Source of the DNA: Solobacterium sp.
GTDB taxonomy: Bacteria > Bacillota_I > Bacilli_A > Erysipelotrichales > Erysipelotrichaceae
Length of the DNA stretch: 64,000 bases
Direction of reading: 5' to 3'
Assembly: GCA_017512555.1 (NCBI GenBank)
Contig: JAFWFE010000011.1
Location: 1-64,000, forward strand
The notes beneath the pieces were generated by a model. That model was not told the origin of the DNA, did not search any database, and saw only the letters and a program-made list of their open reading frames with translations. Within the stretch, counting starts at the first letter, position 1. Each line of letters starts with the position of its first letter. Positions 24,493 through 32,450 of this stretch are shown here, piece by piece. The position numbers and the translations under genes were made by a program.

Positions 24493-25284
24493 ATGGAATC
24501 ACAAAATCAGAACACAAGACATTCCGTGACATTACTATGGTCCGGAGGATGGGACGGCACATTCCGATTACTGCAGCTTTGTCAGAATGACATCACGATT
24601 CAGCCTGTTTATGTAACCGATTCGGATCGTTCTAGTACAGAAATCGAAAAGCAGCGGATCGATGAGATCCTGAAGATTTGCAGGGAAAGGTTTCCCGCGG
24701 AAATCAGAGATGTGACATTCTATGATAAAAATTGGATACTTGAAACATGTAAAGATGAACAAATATCTTCCTCTTTCCGGCATCTGAGAAAAACTTATAA
24801 TCTCGGAAGCCAGTATGAATGGTTTGCCCTGCTTACCAGATATCTTGATCAGAAAATGGAGTGCGGTGTCGTTCACCAGTATCACGGCAAGGTAGAAGAA
24901 GCCATTGATCATGAAGGTACTATGGAATTGATCCAGGGGGATTTCCTGCCGGGACGGTATCACGTTCTTCCGAAAGAAGATCAAACGAGTGCCTATGATG
25001 TCTTCGGCAATCTGATCTTTCCGATTATCCGTCTTACCAAAAAAGATGAAGAAAACATTGCCCGTGATAACGGATGGATGGATATCATGAACCTGAGCTG
25101 GTTCTGTCACACTCCGATCCATGGAGAACCCTGTGGTGTGTGCGGACCATGTGAAGATGCGATGAATACCGGAATGGAATGGCGTCTTCCGGCTGCCGCA
25201 AAACGCCGGTACAAATACCGCAAACTCATCCGCTTCTGTAAAAGAATCAAAAACCGCATATTAAGAACGAGAAAAACAGTATGA
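24493..25284 (+). CDS. QueC-like PP-loop ATP-pyrophosphatase of unknown substrate
   Basis: Adenine-nucleotide alpha-hydrolase fold protein related to QueC (7-cyano-7-deazaguanine synthase). The PP-loop SGGWDG is at residues 17-22, and a four-Cys zinc-type cluster lies near the C-terminus (Cys205, Cys214, Cys217, Cys220; CGVCGPC). QueC joins ammonia to a carboxylate with ATP and then makes a nitrile. 263 aa, longer than QueC (about 220), with a basic tail of Arg/Lys. No queD, queE, queF or folE is in the window. It overlaps the APC permease gene by 4 bp, so the two form one unit. Function unknown; an ATP-dependent amidation or nitrile-forming reaction on a transported acid is conceivable. Confidence 0.75.
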   Translation: MESQNQNTRHSVTLLWSGGWDGTFRLLQLCQNDITIQPVYVTDSDRSSTEIEKQRIDEILKICRERFPAEIRDVTFYDKNWILETCKDEQISSSFRHLRKTYNLGSQYEWFALLTRYLDQKMECGVVHQYHGKVEEAIDHEGTMELIQGDFLPGRYHVLPKEDQTSAYDVFGNLIFPIIRLTKKDEENIARDNGWMDIMNLSWFCHTPIHGEPCGVCGPCEDAMNTGMEWRLPAAAKRRYKYRKLIRFCKRIKNRILRTRKTV

Positions 25285-26785: not shown

Positions 26786-27484
26786 TCATTGGTCAAAGAA
26801 TACAGCCCGGTTAATCAGTATATTTCCTTCCTTTTCGCAACGTATCACAAAGTCAAAGATATCTCTCTTGATGCACATCCAGAAGTCTCCTTCCGGGAAC
26901 CGGTACTGTTCTTCCGGACGGAAGAATTTCTTTCCTTCCTGGTATCTCAAGTTTAATAACTGTTCATCAATATCCGGGATTGGATCACTGACCAGCAGAC
27001 TGCGCAGATATTCCGCACATAAGACATCTTCTTCCGTATCCTTCTCTCCAGCCAGTCCCATAGCCACCAGAGAGACAATTTCCGGATTACGCTGACGGAT
27101 GTATTCTGCCGTAGCTTTGGCATTCACAAAGCTGCCTGTAAGAATCTCCCGGGCACGTACGGCACGCATGATTCCCTGGGTACCTGCGCTGGTCGAGTGG
27201 ATCATCGTACGGTGCGCAAAAGACAGAGATTCCACGGAAGATGGTGAATTGCCGTAATCACAGCCTTCCACCTTGATTCCCTGCCGTTCTCCAAAGAGAA
27301 GATACTCCGGATGTGCCTGTTTCATCGCAAATGCCTGATCCAGGGCTGCTACAGGATAGATCTTCTCTGCACCTTGGGAGAATAAATACGCTTCCAGGGT
27401 GAATGCCCGGAAAACATCAATGATCACGGTCAGACCGGAAGCCTGTTCCGCACCTTCCAGTAAATGCAGGATCTGTATCTTCAT
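26786..27484 (-). CDS. ComB-like 2-phosphosulfolactate phosphatase family protein
   Basis: Member of the ComB family (PF04029), whose named member hydrolyses 2-phosphosulfolactate in coenzyme M and sulfolactate synthesis. Seen: VIIDVFRAFTLEAYL, GERQGIKVEGCDYGNSP and HSTSAGTQGI, matching the family's conserved blocks; 232 aa. Its start overlaps the stop of the second trmD gene by 4 bp. No other sulfonate genes are in the window, so the real substrate may differ. Last gene of the unknown-TrmD-ComB unit. Confidence 0.8.
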   Translation of the reverse strand: MKIQILHLLEGAEQASGLTVIIDVFRAFTLEAYLFSQGAEKIYPVAALDQAFAMKQAHPEYLLFGERQGIKVEGCDYGNSPSSVESLSFAHRTMIHSTSAGTQGIMRAVRAREILTGSFVNAKATAEYIRQRNPEIVSLVAMGLAGEKDTEEDVLCAEYLRSLLVSDPIPDIDEQLLNLRYQEGKKFFRPEEQYRFPEGDFWMCIKRDIFDFVIRCEKEGNILINRAVFFDQ

Positions 27485-28206
27485 CCTTTTCCCTCATTTC
27501 TTATCTCTTCGAGAAGCGCGGATTCTTCCGCAGTCAGTTCTTTCTGTGCCAGCAGGTCCGGACGGAAATGCAAGGTCCTGCGCAGGGATTCCTTCAGACG
27601 CCACAGACGGATCTTTTCGTGATTCCCGGAAAGCAGTACCTCCGGTACTTCCCTGCCCCGGAAGACTCTGGGATGCGTATACTGCGGATACTCCAGCAAT
27701 CCCGACTCAAAGGATTCCTCTGCGGTGCTCTCTGCCCGGATCACGTTTTCCTGCAGTCTGGTTACAGCGTCTACCAGGACTGCCGCAGCGCTTTCTCCGC
27801 CGGACAGGATATAATCCCCGACCGAGATCCATTCATCTGCTGTCTCTGTAATTCTCTCGTCAATTCCTTCATAATGTCCGCAGATCAGGATCAGTTCTTC
27901 TTTTTCGCTTAATTCGCGGACTTTGGCCTGGTTCAGAGGTGTACCTGCCGGCGTAAACAGGATCACTGTAGATCTGGCACTGCGGTGCTGATCCAAAGCA
28001 GAAAAAACCGGCTCCGGTCGCAGGATCATACCCGGACCGCCGCCGTAGGGAGAATCGTCAATATGCCGGTAAGACCCGGACGCGTAATCCCGCAGATCCA
28101 CGATATTCAGCGTCAGTTCCTTCTTCTGTATCAGTCTTTGAATCAGCGGATATTGTTCCAGGGATTCCAGCATCTGCGGAACAATTGTCAGTATCGTGAT
28201 GATCAT
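27481..28206 (-). CDS. Second TrmD: tRNA (guanine-37-N1)-methyltransferase paralogue
   Basis: SPOUT (trefoil-knot) methyltransferase closely like TrmD: YGGGPGMIL (residues 54-62), the SAM-binding knot GHYEGIDERI and ISVGDYILSGGE, and the linker/C-terminal part LLEYPQYTHP with LLSGNHEKIRLWR. 241 aa, full length, no frameshift. The interdomain-linker acid that is Asp in the usual EDSF motif is Glu164 here, the same as in the copy at 29145. The gene overlaps its neighbours by 4 bp on both sides (unknown protein upstream, ComB-like downstream). The locus copy at 29145, coupled to rimM, is taken as the housekeeping enzyme; this one may have altered substrate choice. Confidence 0.88.
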   Translation of the reverse strand: MIITILTIVPQMLESLEQYPLIQRLIQKKELTLNIVDLRDYASGSYRHIDDSPYGGGPGMILRPEPVFSALDQHRSARSTVILFTPAGTPLNQAKVRELSEKEELILICGHYEGIDERITETADEWISVGDYILSGGESAAAVLVDAVTRLQENVIRAESTAEESFESGLLEYPQYTHPRVFRGREVPEVLLSGNHEKIRLWRLKESLRRTLHFRPDLLAQKELTAEESALLEEIRNEGKG

Positions 28207-29093
28207 TGGTTATCCTGTGCCTTTGCCTGGCTAAGTTCAAGCATGTCCTGTAATTCCCTGGTATTCAGAGGTTCGATCACCTTATGCCCTGCATCATAGT
28301 ACTTTGTCTTACTGCGCGGAAGGACGACATTCAGGTCATCAAAGCGTATGGTACCCAGTACTTTTGACGTATTAGAGTCATACAGGGAGATCAGCCAGTG
28401 ATCAACACGGATCTTATCTTTCTGATCATACATGGTAAACGGAAGACCTGGTTTATCCGGGAAGATGATTGGTACACCGGCAGGCAGAAAATACGTTCCC
28501 GTATTCTGCTGTACACGGACTTCCGGTTCCGCTATGTAGTAGGTTTTATTTTGTAACTCGTGCATCCACTGTCCGAACGCTTCCGCATCCGTACAGTATC
28601 CGATTTGTTCGGCTTCCTTACTTCCCAATACCAGTCTGTGCATGGCACAGCTCAGGGAAAGATTGCCGGATCCTTCCAGTACCTTGGGTAAGAGTTCATT
28701 TAACAGACGTACGTTTTGTCTCTGGATGTCTTCTTCTTTTTCATCCAGACGGCTTAATGAGAGATGATTCCCGTTGATTTCTATACTTCCGGTCCAGTAT
28801 TCTCCTGCCCTGTGGACAAGCTGAAACAGCTCGTGGATCTCTTCCACGTTGGCAGGAAGCGGCAGGAGGATCTTAAGTTCTGTTTCATTTTCTTTATCCC
28901 AGTTCGTACGTATGCCTCTGCCAATCTTATTTTCACAGTAAAGAACCAGCATATTCCGTGTGGTCTTGTTCTTTACCAGATGATCACGGCTGAAATAGCC
29001 ATACCGCAATGTATCGCCGGTCATCAATTGTAAAGGAATACTTTTCGGGAATTTGGTGATCTGTGTCAGAACGACATTGATTTCCGTATTCAT
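28203..29093 (-). CDS. Conserved-looking protein of unknown function
   Basis: I do not recognise this 296-aa protein. It has no signal peptide or membrane helix, begins MNTEINVVLTQITKFPKS and seems to be an alternating strand/helix cytoplasmic protein; it might be of the DUF4299 type, which I cannot confirm. An AGAGGT site precedes the ATG at 29093. Its end overlaps the second trmD start by 4 bp, and that gene overlaps the ComB-like gene, so the three are one translational unit. An extended -10 like TGGTATCAT lies about 20 bases upstream, with TTGAGA 15 bases before it. Confidence 0.8.
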   Translation of the reverse strand: MNTEINVVLTQITKFPKSIPLQLMTGDTLRYGYFSRDHLVKNKTTRNMLVLYCENKIGRGIRTNWDKENETELKILLPLPANVEEIHELFQLVHRAGEYWTGSIEINGNHLSLSRLDEKEEDIQRQNVRLLNELLPKVLEGSGNLSLSCAMHRLVLGSKEAEQIGYCTDAEAFGQWMHELQNKTYYIAEPEVRVQQNTGTYFLPAGVPIIFPDKPGLPFTMYDQKDKIRVDHWLISLYDSNTSKVLGTIRFDDLNVVLPRSKTKYYDAGHKVIEPLNTRELQDMLELSQAKAQDNQ

Positions 29094-29144
29094 TCATGTA
29101 CCTCTGTTATTGGTATGATACCATATTCCGATACTTCTCAAAGA

Positions 29145-29870
29145 TTATTTTTGTTCAGGATCATCCCACTGATCCAGAAGTTTCTTTTCTTCTTTAGTCA
29201 GTTGATGTTTTTCGAACAGATCCGGGCGTATTTCTCTGGTTTTGAGCAGTGATTGAAGCAGGCGCCATTTCCGAATATTCTCGTGATGCCCGGATAACAA
29301 GATTTCCGGTACGGGATGACCATCATAGACAGCAGGCTGCGTATACTGCGGGTATTCCAGAAGTTCCTGGTCAAAAGATTCCTCCTCAACAGAGTCATTG
29401 GAAATTACACCCTGGCATAAGCGTATCACACTGTCCGCAATGACCATGGATGCCAGTTCCCCGCCGGTCAGTACGTAATCCCCGATGGACAGGCATTCAT
29501 CCACGTATTCTTCCACACGCGCGTCAATGCCCTCATAATGGCCGCACAGGAAGATCAAATGGTCATACTGCGTCAGCTGCCGGGCTTTCTTCTGGGTATA
29601 GACGTTCCCCCGGGGATTCATCATCATACAGTAGCTTTCCGGTGTGCGGACACTGTTCAGGGCATCGATGACCGGCTGGCATTTCATTACCATTCCGGCA
29701 CCACCGCCAAACGGAGTATCATCCACATGTCTGTACTTATCCAATGCGAAATCACGGATCTGTACAAAATCCACCTGGACCTTACCTTGTTCGATACTTC
29801 TGCCGATGATCGATGTATGAATGAAATTCTCATACATCTCCGGAAACAGCGTCACAAACGTGATTCTCAT
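29145..29870 (-). CDS. trmD: tRNA (guanine-37-N1)-methyltransferase
   Basis: Methylates G37 next to the anticodon to prevent +1 frameshifting; essential SPOUT dimer. Motifs FGGGAGMVM, GHYEGIDARV and SIGDYVLTGGE form the SAM knot, followed by LLEYPQYTQP and LLSGHHENIRKWR. 241 aa. The linker acid normally Asp (EDSF) is Glu164. Its start overlaps the rimM stop by 4 bp, as in the standard rpsP-KH-rimM-trmD cluster, so I take this as the housekeeping copy. Confidence 0.96.
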   Translation of the reverse strand: MRITFVTLFPEMYENFIHTSIIGRSIEQGKVQVDFVQIRDFALDKYRHVDDTPFGGGAGMVMKCQPVIDALNSVRTPESYCMMMNPRGNVYTQKKARQLTQYDHLIFLCGHYEGIDARVEEYVDECLSIGDYVLTGGELASMVIADSVIRLCQGVISNDSVEEESFDQELLEYPQYTQPAVYDGHPVPEILLSGHHENIRKWRLLQSLLKTREIRPDLFEKHQLTKEEKKLLDQWDDPEQK

Positions 29871-30376
29871 AACAATCCTTCGATCACATGTACCGTGATC
29901 ACGCCTTCTTCATCATCAATATCCGTGATAAATTCCGGAACATAGGGAATCAGCGCGTCTTTCATTCCTTCTCTTTCCACACGCAGATTATTCTGTGCAC
30001 CGCGGGTTTCTTCCACATCGATCACAGTTCCGATCAGGTTACCCTCTTCATCCTTCACCGTCAACCCAATCAGTTCATCCACGTAATATTCTCCCTCCGG
30101 AAGATCCTGTCTGTCACTATCCGCAATCAAGATCTCACAGGTCTTGTACTTCTCTACCAGATTGATATCCTGCAGACCCTCAAATGCCACCAGCGCATAA
30201 CCTTTATGTACTCTGTAAGAAACCGGATGCACCGGAATCAGTTCGTCCTGATAATCGATATAGACCGTACTGCCTTTCGCATAACGTACTTCATCAAAAT
30301 CAGACCAACTCTCGATCTTCAGTTCTCCTTTTAAGCCATGTGTATTGACGATCTTACCGATAGCGATATACTCCAT
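29867..30376 (-). CDS. rimM: 16S rRNA processing protein RimM
   Basis: 30S maturation factor that binds S19. Starts MEYIAIGKIVNTHGLKGELKI (the family front motif), with the PRC-barrel domain after residue 90 (GEYYVDELIGLTV, LIPYVPEFI). 169 aa from the ATG at 30376, which follows AAAGGAG; the longer frame to 30415 is not needed. Between khpA and trmD. Confidence 0.96.
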   Translation of the reverse strand: MEYIAIGKIVNTHGLKGELKIESWSDFDEVRYAKGSTVYIDYQDELIPVHPVSYRVHKGYALVAFEGLQDINLVEKYKTCEILIADSDRQDLPEGEYYVDELIGLTVKDEEGNLIGTVIDVEETRGAQNNLRVEREGMKDALIPYVPEFITDIDDEEGVITVHVIEGLL

Positions 30377-30417
30377 ATACTCTCCTTTCTGAGAAAAAAG
30401 GATGCATAAATGCACCC

Positions 30418-30666
30418 TCAGACTTTCTCAAATTTGATCGTTACTCTCTTATCTTCCGCATGTGAAGCCACCATCATGACTTGACGCAAAGCCGAAGCCA
30501 TCGTACCTTTACGACCGATCAGTCTGGCGATATCTTCATCTTTCGCATAGACATAGAGTATAACTTCTCTATGATTATCCGCCGGCATTTCCTTGACTAC
30601 AAGATTTGCCTTGTCTTCGACAAGTGGTTCAATCAGATCAAATAATACTCTATCCAACGCTGCCAT
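30418..30666 (-). CDS. khpA: KH-domain RNA-binding protein KhpA
   Basis: Small single-KH protein (82 aa) that binds RNA and, in other Gram-positives, works with KhpB in cell elongation and RNA control. The KH loop is IARLIGRKGTMASALR. It starts 2 bp after the rpsP stop; this rpsP-KH-rimM order is standard. Confidence 0.95.
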   Translation of the reverse strand: MAALDRVLFDLIEPLVEDKANLVVKEMPADNHREVILYVYAKDEDIARLIGRKGTMASALRQVMMVASHAEDKRVTIKFEKV

Positions 30667-30668
30667 AC

Positions 30669-30947
30669 TTACTTTTTACTAGCCTTTTTCTCTTCGTGAT
30701 ATCTCTTCAGAACGCCTTCCTGAGAAAGGATCGTACGAACAGTATCCGTAGGCTGAGCTCCATTCTTGAGCCATTCCAGAGCTTTCTCCGCATCCAGATG
30801 AACCTCTGCAGGCTGAGCTGTAGGATTGAAATAACCCAAAGTATCAATGACACGTCCGTCTCTCGGAGAACGTGAATCTGCCGCAACGATACGATATCTC
30901 GGTGCTTTCTTCGCACCCATTCTTGTTAATCTTAATTTGACTGCCAT
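30669..30947 (-). CDS. rpsP: 30S ribosomal protein S16
   Basis: Small-subunit protein; [20 protein letters not shown] is diagnostic, with [16 protein letters not shown] following. 92 aa from the ATG at 30947, preceded by AAGGAG; an upstream frame to 30980 overlaps the promoter. First gene of rpsP-khpA-rimM-trmD. Confidence 0.98.
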
Positions 30948-30971
30948 AATATTTTTCTCCTTACCAGAGAT

Positions 30972-31016
30972 ATTATTCACATTTTATCACTATCTGTCAA
31001 GTATTTTATCTTGACA
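30972..31016 (-). promoter_or_regulatory. Promoter of rpsP-khpA-rimM-trmD with inverted repeat at -35
   Basis: TTGACA (31000-30995), 17-base spacer, AATAAT (30977-30972). The -35 hexamer is one arm of a 7-bp inverted repeat TGTCAAG / CTTGACA (30995-31001 and 31010-31016, 8-base loop), which lies directly after the ffh stop codon. No T run follows, so it looks more like an operator or chance than a terminator. Confidence 0.65.
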
Positions 31017-31018
31017 CT

Positions 31019-32416
31019 TTAATTTCTTCTTCTGGAAGCGTTCAGCTGATCCAGCTGTTTCTGCGCATCTTCCATCATCTTCATGGCTTTTTCTTCATCC
31101 AGCTGACCATTCTTTGTCATACTCCCCATCATATCCATGGCTTTCTTTGTCTTTTCCCACTGCTTGAGGAGTTTATTGACATCGTTAACTGTCGTTCCGG
31201 AACCTGCCGCGATTCTCTTCTTCATTGTACTGCGGATCCTCTCCGGATGTCTGCGTTCTGCCAGCGTCATGGACTGGATCATTGCCTTTGTACGTTTCAT
31301 ACTGTCAGCCGCTTCATTCTCGTTGATCAGGTCCGAATACTGCGAATATCCCGGCAGCATACGCAGAATACCGCCTAACGGACCAAGTTTCTGCATCTGT
31401 TCCATCTGTTTCAGCATATCGTCCATGTCAAACTGTCCGGACAACATACGCTGGGCAGCTCTCTCCGCTTCTTCCAGGTCCATCTTCTCCTGTGCGCGTT
31501 CCACCAGGGAGACCACATCACCCATACCGAGAATACGGTCTGCCATACGCTCCGGATAGAAGATATCCATGTCTTCGATCTTTTCACCTTCACCGACAAA
31601 TTTGATCGGCACATTGGTGATCTTACGTACGGATAAAACACCACCACCGCGGCTGTCACCGTCAAACTTCGTGACAACAAGTCCTGTAAGAGGCAGTTGT
31701 TCAGAGAAGGAACGTGCCACGTTGACAATATCCTGACCGGTCATCGCGTCAACCGTAAGCAGAATATCATCCGGATGCACAAGCGCTTCAATATCACTCA
31801 ATTCCTGCATGAGTTCTTCATCGATATGAAGACGGCCGGCCGTATCGATGAATACCGTATCATACCCCTGTTCACGGGCATACTGCATACCCTGACGCAC
31901 TGTCTCCACCGCGTTGACTCCCGTACCCAGAGAGAATGTCTCGATACCAAGTTCATTCCCCAGTGTTTTTAACTGGTCGATTGCTGCGGGACGGATCACG
32001 TCTGCCGCAATAAACATCGGATTCCGGTTGTATTTATTGATACAGATCCGGGCAATCTTCGCCGCACTGGTTGTTTTACCGGTACCCTGAAGACCAACCA
32101 GCATGATCACAGTAATCCCGCTTTCCTTGAAATTCAGTTCCGCCTGATTGTCTCCGAGCAGGGAAATGATCTCGTCATGGACGATCTTGACCAACATCTC
32201 TCCCGGTTCAACACTGTTGATGACATCTTCACCACGAGCTTTATTCCGCACATCGTCCAGGAATTCCTTGACGATCCGGTAGTTCACATCCGCTTCCAGA
32301 AGTGCCAGACGCACCTCTTTCAGCATATCCTCCATATTCGCATCGGTCAGTTTTCCCTTGCCGATAATATTACGCATTGATTTATTCAAACGTTCACTTA
32401 AGGAATCAAAAGCCAT
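31019..32416 (-). CDS. ffh: Signal recognition particle protein Ffh (SRP54)
   Basis: GTPase that binds signal sequences with 4.5S RNA and targets nascent membrane proteins. N domain, then the G domain with Walker A GLQGTGKTT, VIRPAAIDQL, DTAGR and TKFDGDSRGG, then a Met-rich M domain (MEQMQKLGPLGG onward). 465 aa from the ATG at 32416 (MAFDSLSERLN), which has AGAGGTGA upstream. No ylxM gene precedes it; a MarR regulator does, beyond a terminator. Confidence 0.97.
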   Translation of the reverse strand: MAFDSLSERLNKSMRNIIGKGKLTDANMEDMLKEVRLALLEADVNYRIVKEFLDDVRNKARGEDVINSVEPGEMLVKIVHDEIISLLGDNQAELNFKESGITVIMLVGLQGTGKTTSAAKIARICINKYNRNPMFIAADVIRPAAIDQLKTLGNELGIETFSLGTGVNAVETVRQGMQYAREQGYDTVFIDTAGRLHIDEELMQELSDIEALVHPDDILLTVDAMTGQDIVNVARSFSEQLPLTGLVVTKFDGDSRGGGVLSVRKITNVPIKFVGEGEKIEDMDIFYPERMADRILGMGDVVSLVERAQEKMDLEEAERAAQRMLSGQFDMDDMLKQMEQMQKLGPLGGILRMLPGYSQYSDLINENEAADSMKRTKAMIQSMTLAERRHPERIRSTMKKRIAAGSGTTVNDVNKLLKQWEKTKKAMDMMGSMTKNGQLDEEKAMKMMEDAQKQLDQLNASRRRN

Positions 32417-32450
32417 ACCATCACCTCTCAACTAATGTATTTTACCATAG

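Follow-up and report, generated by a model that had tools for sequence, protein, structure and literature searches.

A conserved second class of TrmD in Solobacterium and its relatives, probably a specialised m1G37 methyltransferase and perhaps paired with the canonical enzyme

TrmD is, by textbook account, a single-copy and mostly essential enzyme and an antibiotic target. Why, then, does a Solobacterium sp. genome (GenBank assembly GCA_017512555.1) carry two full-length trmD genes? The window analysed here (positions 1 to 64,000 of contig JAFWFE010000011.1) contains both, intact, on the minus strand and 0.9 kb apart. One, trmD1 (29145–29870), is the canonical rimM-linked gene; the other, trmD2 (27481–28206), belongs by its place in trees to a separate lineage, the “GS-loop” clade. 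As the initial annotation had reported, both genes are full-length and free of frameshifts. Each open reading frame encodes 241 residues with no stops, and both products score above the TrmD equivalog cut-offs. The genome holds exactly these two TrmDs. Because they lie on a single 71-kb contig, and both copies likewise share contigs in four related genomes (G072, G059, G056 and G147), the two-TrmD state is no product of binning or contamination. TrmD2 represents a genuine and conserved second class of TrmD, apparently undescribed, and is, judging from its sequence, probably a specialised methyltransferase forming N1-methylguanosine at tRNA position 37 (m1G37).

By every defining feature tested, genomic location excepted, TrmD2 is a member of the TrmD family. 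It scores 271 bits against TIGR00088 (the NCBI TrmD equivalog, cut-off 195), for which TrmD1 scores 302.5 bits, and 284.6 bits against NF000648 (cut-off 220), while PF01746 matches the two TrmDs of the window with E-values of 5e-58 and 2e-58. Relatives of TrmD2 in Lachnospiraceae and Spirochaetales likewise exceed the equivalog cut-off. The AlphaFold model of TrmD2 (predicted local distance difference test score, 83) has a trefoil-knot SPOUT domain and a C-terminal domain, and its best PDB matches are all TrmD, with a template modelling score of 0.85. Residues are numbered here as in the E. coli and H. influenzae enzymes (the numbered residues of the E. coli sequence used match those cited in reviews). 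In the alignment TrmD2 keeps R154, D169 (as E), S165 and F171; the first two correspond to R150 and E164 of the window’s protein (27715–27759, minus strand). The D to E substitution is no peculiarity of TrmD2, being common in single-copy Firmicutes TrmDs. D50, which reads G36, and G59 are conserved in both groups alike, and the S-adenosylmethionine (AdoMet) knot is retained across the TrmD2 clade. The exception is the rpsP-rimM-trmD-rplS operon, a typical context and not a requirement of membership: rimM lies upstream of no TrmD2. The GS-loop clade is delimited by a GS[FY]R-x-x-DD[S/N/D] loop, monophyly and absence of rimM linkage, and TrmD2 has all three.

We surveyed 315 genomes of the order, including 70 of the window’s own genus (g1), whose named records include rumen and goat-gut Erysipelotrichaceae and Solobacterium metagenome-assembled genomes (MAGs). 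Most genera have a single TrmD; two occur mainly in g1 and in two further genera, g18 and g44. Wherever a genome has two full copies, one adjoins rimM (TrmD1) and the other is located elsewhere (TrmD2). Identified by sequence, TrmD2 is present in 45 of the 70 g1 genomes, in 19 g18 genomes and in one g44 genome; a copy labelled TrmD2 in G116 is a partial duplicate record of its TrmD1 and was excluded. Among 395 sampled genomes of the class, only the window’s had two TrmD matches; the 343 from other orders included no such case. Outside the class, seven of 299 surveyed Lachnospiraceae genomes have a TrmD2-type copy, whose scores stand clearly apart from those of ordinary TrmDs; one further case from outside that survey (L215) brings the family to eight, and two Spirochaetales genomes also carry TrmD2. 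All of these carriers, except one Spirochaetales MAG, have another TrmD as well. A search of known plasmids and phages gave no TrmD2: the best matches listed are 44–47% identical and look like ordinary chromosomal TrmDs (several are annotated trmD/rimM), and viral contigs gave nothing.

The TrmD2s are monophyletic in a 187-sequence tree (support of 100 in the Shimodaira-Hasegawa-like approximate likelihood ratio test, SH-aLRT). In a 91-sequence tree their clade (99/95) also holds two Lachnospiraceae TrmDs that do not adjoin rimM, both from genomes with a second TrmD that does, and the clade stays single when the other Lachnospiraceae and Spirochaetales members are added (support 98). It is not pulled together artificially by the loop motif, since, once the loop columns are cut, the likelihood is higher for the tree that keeps it whole (+37.6; approximately unbiased test, p-AU 0.91). 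Nesting in the 187- and 91-sequence trees hinted that TrmD2 arose within the genus and later passed to other genera. This scenario is not upheld, because trees that unite the TrmD2s of the genus (p-AU 0.74), or that group all Erysipelotrichales TrmD1s together (p-AU 0.69), are not rejected. By the trees, TrmD2 is an old branch of TrmD, conserved in its own right and set apart from all rimM-linked TrmDs. To judge from its distribution, several lineages have lost or acquired the gene, which shifts from locus to locus and has probably crossed between phyla as well.

We found no description of a second TrmD lineage in the literature searched, in which subscription papers are thinly covered, so that this is weak evidence of novelty. 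The “trmD2” named in one paper (PMC11073494) is a frameshifted single gene. There is a likeness to RlmB/YfiF-type duplications of SPOUT methyltransferases (PMC1829167), where a paralogue of a single-copy RNA methyltransferase is retained as its own lineage, but no comparable lineage for TrmD itself was found in the same literature. Known TrmDs (H. influenzae, 4YVI; E. coli, 1P9P) share with TrmD2 the full-length, two-domain SPOUT architecture and the catalytic, G36-reading and AdoMet residues. TrmD2 differs from them in forming a separate clade, in lacking rimM linkage, in sitting beside a normal TrmD and in being fused at times to an HD, APH or nitroreductase domain.

For matched species pairs, the ratio of nonsynonymous to synonymous substitution rates (dN/dS) is 0.05–0.18 for TrmD2 and 0.01–0.08 for TrmD1, the TrmD2 value usually being about 1.1 to 5-fold the higher. 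TrmD2 is less constrained than TrmD1, yet clearly under purifying selection. Its identity to TrmD1 is about 47–51% in the g1 pairs listed, and with such dN/dS values it is neither a recent pseudogene nor a relaxed duplicate. The initial annotation had looked for a long, separately conserved branch for the 27481 copy, and the clade and the purifying selection on it bear this out; together they also exclude the very recent duplicate with relaxed constraint that it had named as the contrary case.

Where TrmD2 departs from TrmD1 is not random along the protein. Residues 35–54 contain eight of the 20 top clade-specific positions (1.7 expected, p = 4e-5), while the linker and C-terminal domain contain only two (7.7 expected); the same comparison between two TrmD1 groups, made as a control, gave no excess in 35–54 (p = 0.23). 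The loop reads GS[FY]R..DDS[P] in TrmD2 versus DK[HY]...DD[TY]P in canonical TrmD. In the window’s TrmD2, residues 36–54 (28045–28101, minus strand) form this clade-specific tRNA-contact loop, VDLRDYASGSYRHIDDSPY, with D50, S52 and Y54 (contact roles from PMC5372744); its canonical counterpart in TrmD1, residues 43–54 (29709–29744, minus strand), is LDKYRHVDDTPF. The TrmD2 motif is found only in TrmDs away from rimM, with the exception of a nine-genome g1 lineage, described below, in which the rimM-linked gene has it and TrmD2 is absent (Fisher p = 2e-5, before correction for relatedness). In the TrmD-tRNA structure, D50 reads G36 and residues 52 and 54 contact the phosphates of nucleotides 26–28, whereas the other subunit brings R154 and D169 to bear on G37 (PMC5372744; PMC9508554). 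Subunit A supplies the AdoMet pocket and the loop with D50, R52, Y54 and G59, the last of which contacts the phosphate of position 38, and subunit B supplies the G37 readers, R154 and D/E169, and the C-terminal domain (PMC5372744).

Since the catalytic, G36, G37 and AdoMet residues are kept and the loop is changed, TrmD2 seems capable of catalysis while handling the anticodon branch differently. The location of the clade-specific residues also supports altered tRNA recognition, in line with the initial suggestion that the 27481 copy may modify another tRNA set. With about as much confidence as doubt, we propose that TrmD2 is an active AdoMet-dependent tRNA guanine-N1 methyltransferase, a second m1G37 enzyme with altered tRNA recognition that would work alongside TrmD1. 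Through the changed loop 35–54 it would hold the anticodon branch differently, and this would shift which tRNAs with G36-G37 are methylated, or under which conditions, so that m1G37 work would be split between two enzymes. A candidate set of substrates to divide is available, because six of the 42 tRNA genes listed by ARAGORN at the tRNA loci of the genome have G36-G37 (Pro UGG/AGG/CGG, His GUG and Leu CAG/GAG). The importance of m1G37 lies mainly in tRNA-Pro charging and maintenance of the reading frame (PMC8643618). The tRNA-Val(GAC) of this genome has C36-G37 in its anticodon loop.

The same residues bear on two alternatives. One is that the RNA methylated by TrmD2 is not one of the G36-G37 tRNAs; the changed tRNA-contact loop and variation at H201, part of the D-stem reader, would suit such a role, but nearly all TrmD2s retain the G37 reader (R154, D/E169 and S165), D50 and the SGxH D-stem motif, and we regard a new substrate as very unlikely. 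The other is plain redundancy or dosage, in which TrmD2 duplicates the work of TrmD1 and is retained by chance or for capacity. The shared catalytic set, the dispensability of TrmD2 in several lineages and its usually higher dN/dS would be expected of a spare copy. Against this stand its long-term retention under the constraint given above, its recurrence in unrelated families, and the pattern in 65 TrmD2s, where G44 is nearly invariant and D37, S45, R47, S52 and F171 fully so, which is not the case in TrmD1. Simple redundancy is therefore an unlikely explanation in our judgement.

Nine g1 genomes (G062, G063, G070, G071, G073, G074, G087, G093 and G116) show the TrmD2 loop, APGSYRHVDDS, in their rimM-linked TrmD1, a protein that is otherwise TrmD1-like, and TrmD2 is absent from all nine. 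A tree built from RimM, KhpA, RpsP and Ffh places them inside the genus as one or two neighbouring groups, and because they nest there the loop is derived in their TrmD1s. It appears to have arisen by gene conversion or convergence, and the combination of loop swap and TrmD2 absence fits the loop being the functional part. G116 also has a tyrosine phosphatase (Y_phosphatase3) fused to its rimM-linked TrmD1 (L107:1555–3060).

Several points weigh against a division of labour between TrmD1 and a re-tuned TrmD2. The near-complete g1 genomes G057, G066, G055 and G103 have no TrmD2, so its activity is non-essential there and the gene is dispensable. With D50 and G59 unchanged, the G36 requirement of TrmD2 may be the same as that of TrmD1. 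The nine loop-swapped genomes amount to only one or two evolutionary events, and convergence in place of gene conversion is possible.

TrmD2 might instead be the backup or resistant form that the initial annotation had suggested, a reserve m1G37 enzyme unaffected by some natural TrmD inhibitor or toxin. It would have spread horizontally, as resistant second aminoacyl-tRNA synthetases have. TrmD2 is scattered, probably by horizontal transfer, over Erysipelotrichaceae, Lachnospiraceae and Spirochaetales, at varying loci and in nearly all cases alongside a normal TrmD, and two Spirochaetales TrmD2s have a fused APH-like kinase domain. Known TrmD inhibitors, however, bind at the AdoMet knot, and that is not where TrmD2 has diverged, its changes lying in the loop that contacts tRNA; the plasmids and phages searched carry no TrmD2, and the literature searched yielded no natural TrmD inhibitor. 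Such a role seems to us quite doubtful.

A reduced form of the protein suggests that TrmD2 is perhaps paired with TrmD1. Four genomes (G255, G257 and G258 of g44; G088 of g1) encode a mini-TrmD2 of 142–143 residues (L208:2648–3076, L209:2586–3014, L210:2654–3190 and L173:2475–2906), in which the TrmD2 loop and AdoMet knot are present while part of helix 1, R154, D169 and the C-terminal domain are missing. In g44 the gene comes after cysS and a mini-RNase III-like gene, with rlmB and the rplK-rplA region to either side of it; in G088 it occupies the position of the full TrmD2 of G075. The mini-TrmD2s of G255 and G258 differ by 34 synonymous and 6 nonsynonymous changes (dN/dS about 0.06), and the dominance of synonymous differences means that the protein is constrained. 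A full TrmD1 is always present alongside. By the known mechanism the mini form is not catalytic on its own, and pairing with TrmD1 is therefore plausible enough to test.

Extended to the full-length proteins, this would give a TrmD1:TrmD2 heterodimer in which TrmD2 acts as a dedicated tRNA-gripping subunit A and TrmD1 as subunit B, with m1G37 made partly by the heterodimer and its altered reader of the anticodon branch. The clade-specific changes of TrmD2 do lie on subunit-A surfaces and spare the linker and C-terminal domain, and a mini-TrmD2 could be catalytic only with a partner that supplies the missing half. Full-length TrmD2s, on the other hand, keep R154, D/E169 and a constrained C-terminal domain, as would be expected of self-sufficient homodimers; those of Lachnospiraceae and Spirochaetales face quite different TrmD1 partners; and the mini form could be a derived use of its own. 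We consider the heterodimer rather unlikely; if true, it would be the first heteromeric TrmD, with mini-TrmD2 as its most reduced form. Trm6/Trm61, the paralogous heteromeric tRNA methyltransferase of eukaryotes (m1A58), has a duplicated subunit that gave up catalysis and serves tRNA binding, and is a precedent for the role that mini-TrmD2 would need, although its fold and site are unrelated and a heteromeric TrmD is hypothetical.

The genes around trmD2 give little further guidance. In the window it is flanked, on the same strand, by a DUF4299-like gene (28203–29093, 296 aa; PF14132, E = 1.6e-8) and a ComB-like gene (PF04029; 26786–27484). The translational coupling first proposed is real as a layout, with 4-bp ATGA overlaps at both the DUF4299/TrmD2 and TrmD2/ComB junctions, but as a clue to function it did not hold up: the arrangement occurs in only three genomes (G000, G072 and G059), TrmD2 sits at unrelated loci elsewhere, and both neighbours exist without it. 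The DUF4299-like gene lies directly downstream of trmD1 in many genomes of the genus, whether or not trmD2 is present. Other settings of TrmD2 are capA-trmD2-azlDC (common in g1), next to an S58 peptidase, and between a thioredoxin-like protein and an aminopeptidase. As there is no steady partner, a self-contained function is favoured for TrmD2 and the coupling is uninformative. C-terminal fusions are likewise varied: HD in most of g18 (as at L095, L098 and L093); nitroreductase in G154 (L105); and APH-like in the two Spirochaetales (L235 and L251). The TrmD2 of G256 (L106:2883–3926) has a C-terminal extension of about 110 aa with no Pfam match. An extra C-terminal domain is also found in TrmD-Tm1570 fusions (Calditerrivibrio nitroreducens, 8B1N), but there the partner is another SPOUT domain, whereas those of TrmD2 are HD phosphohydrolase, nitroreductase or APH-like.

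The canonical operon of the window, ffh-rpsP-khpA-rimM-trmD1, runs on the minus strand from ffh (31019–32431) down to 29145, with khpA, rpsP and ffh at 30418–32431 and rimM, the marker of the canonical trmD locus, at 29867–30415, overlapping the start of trmD1. In G120 (L108:4706–5776) a gap of about 1 kb separates rimM and khpA in an otherwise compact rpsP-khpA-rimM-trmD operon. Elsewhere in the window, a 263-aa protein with a partial QueC match (24493–25284, plus strand; E = 1.4e-4) overlaps an amino-acid permease, and this pair recurs in G072.

With a conserved second class of TrmD, m1G37 synthesis may be split between enzymes in gut bacteria. The loop swap into TrmD1 with loss of TrmD2, together with the mini form, constitutes a natural experiment on how TrmD chooses its tRNAs. 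Annotation pipelines lump the two distinct clades under one name, and assumptions that treat TrmD as a single target may fail in these organisms.

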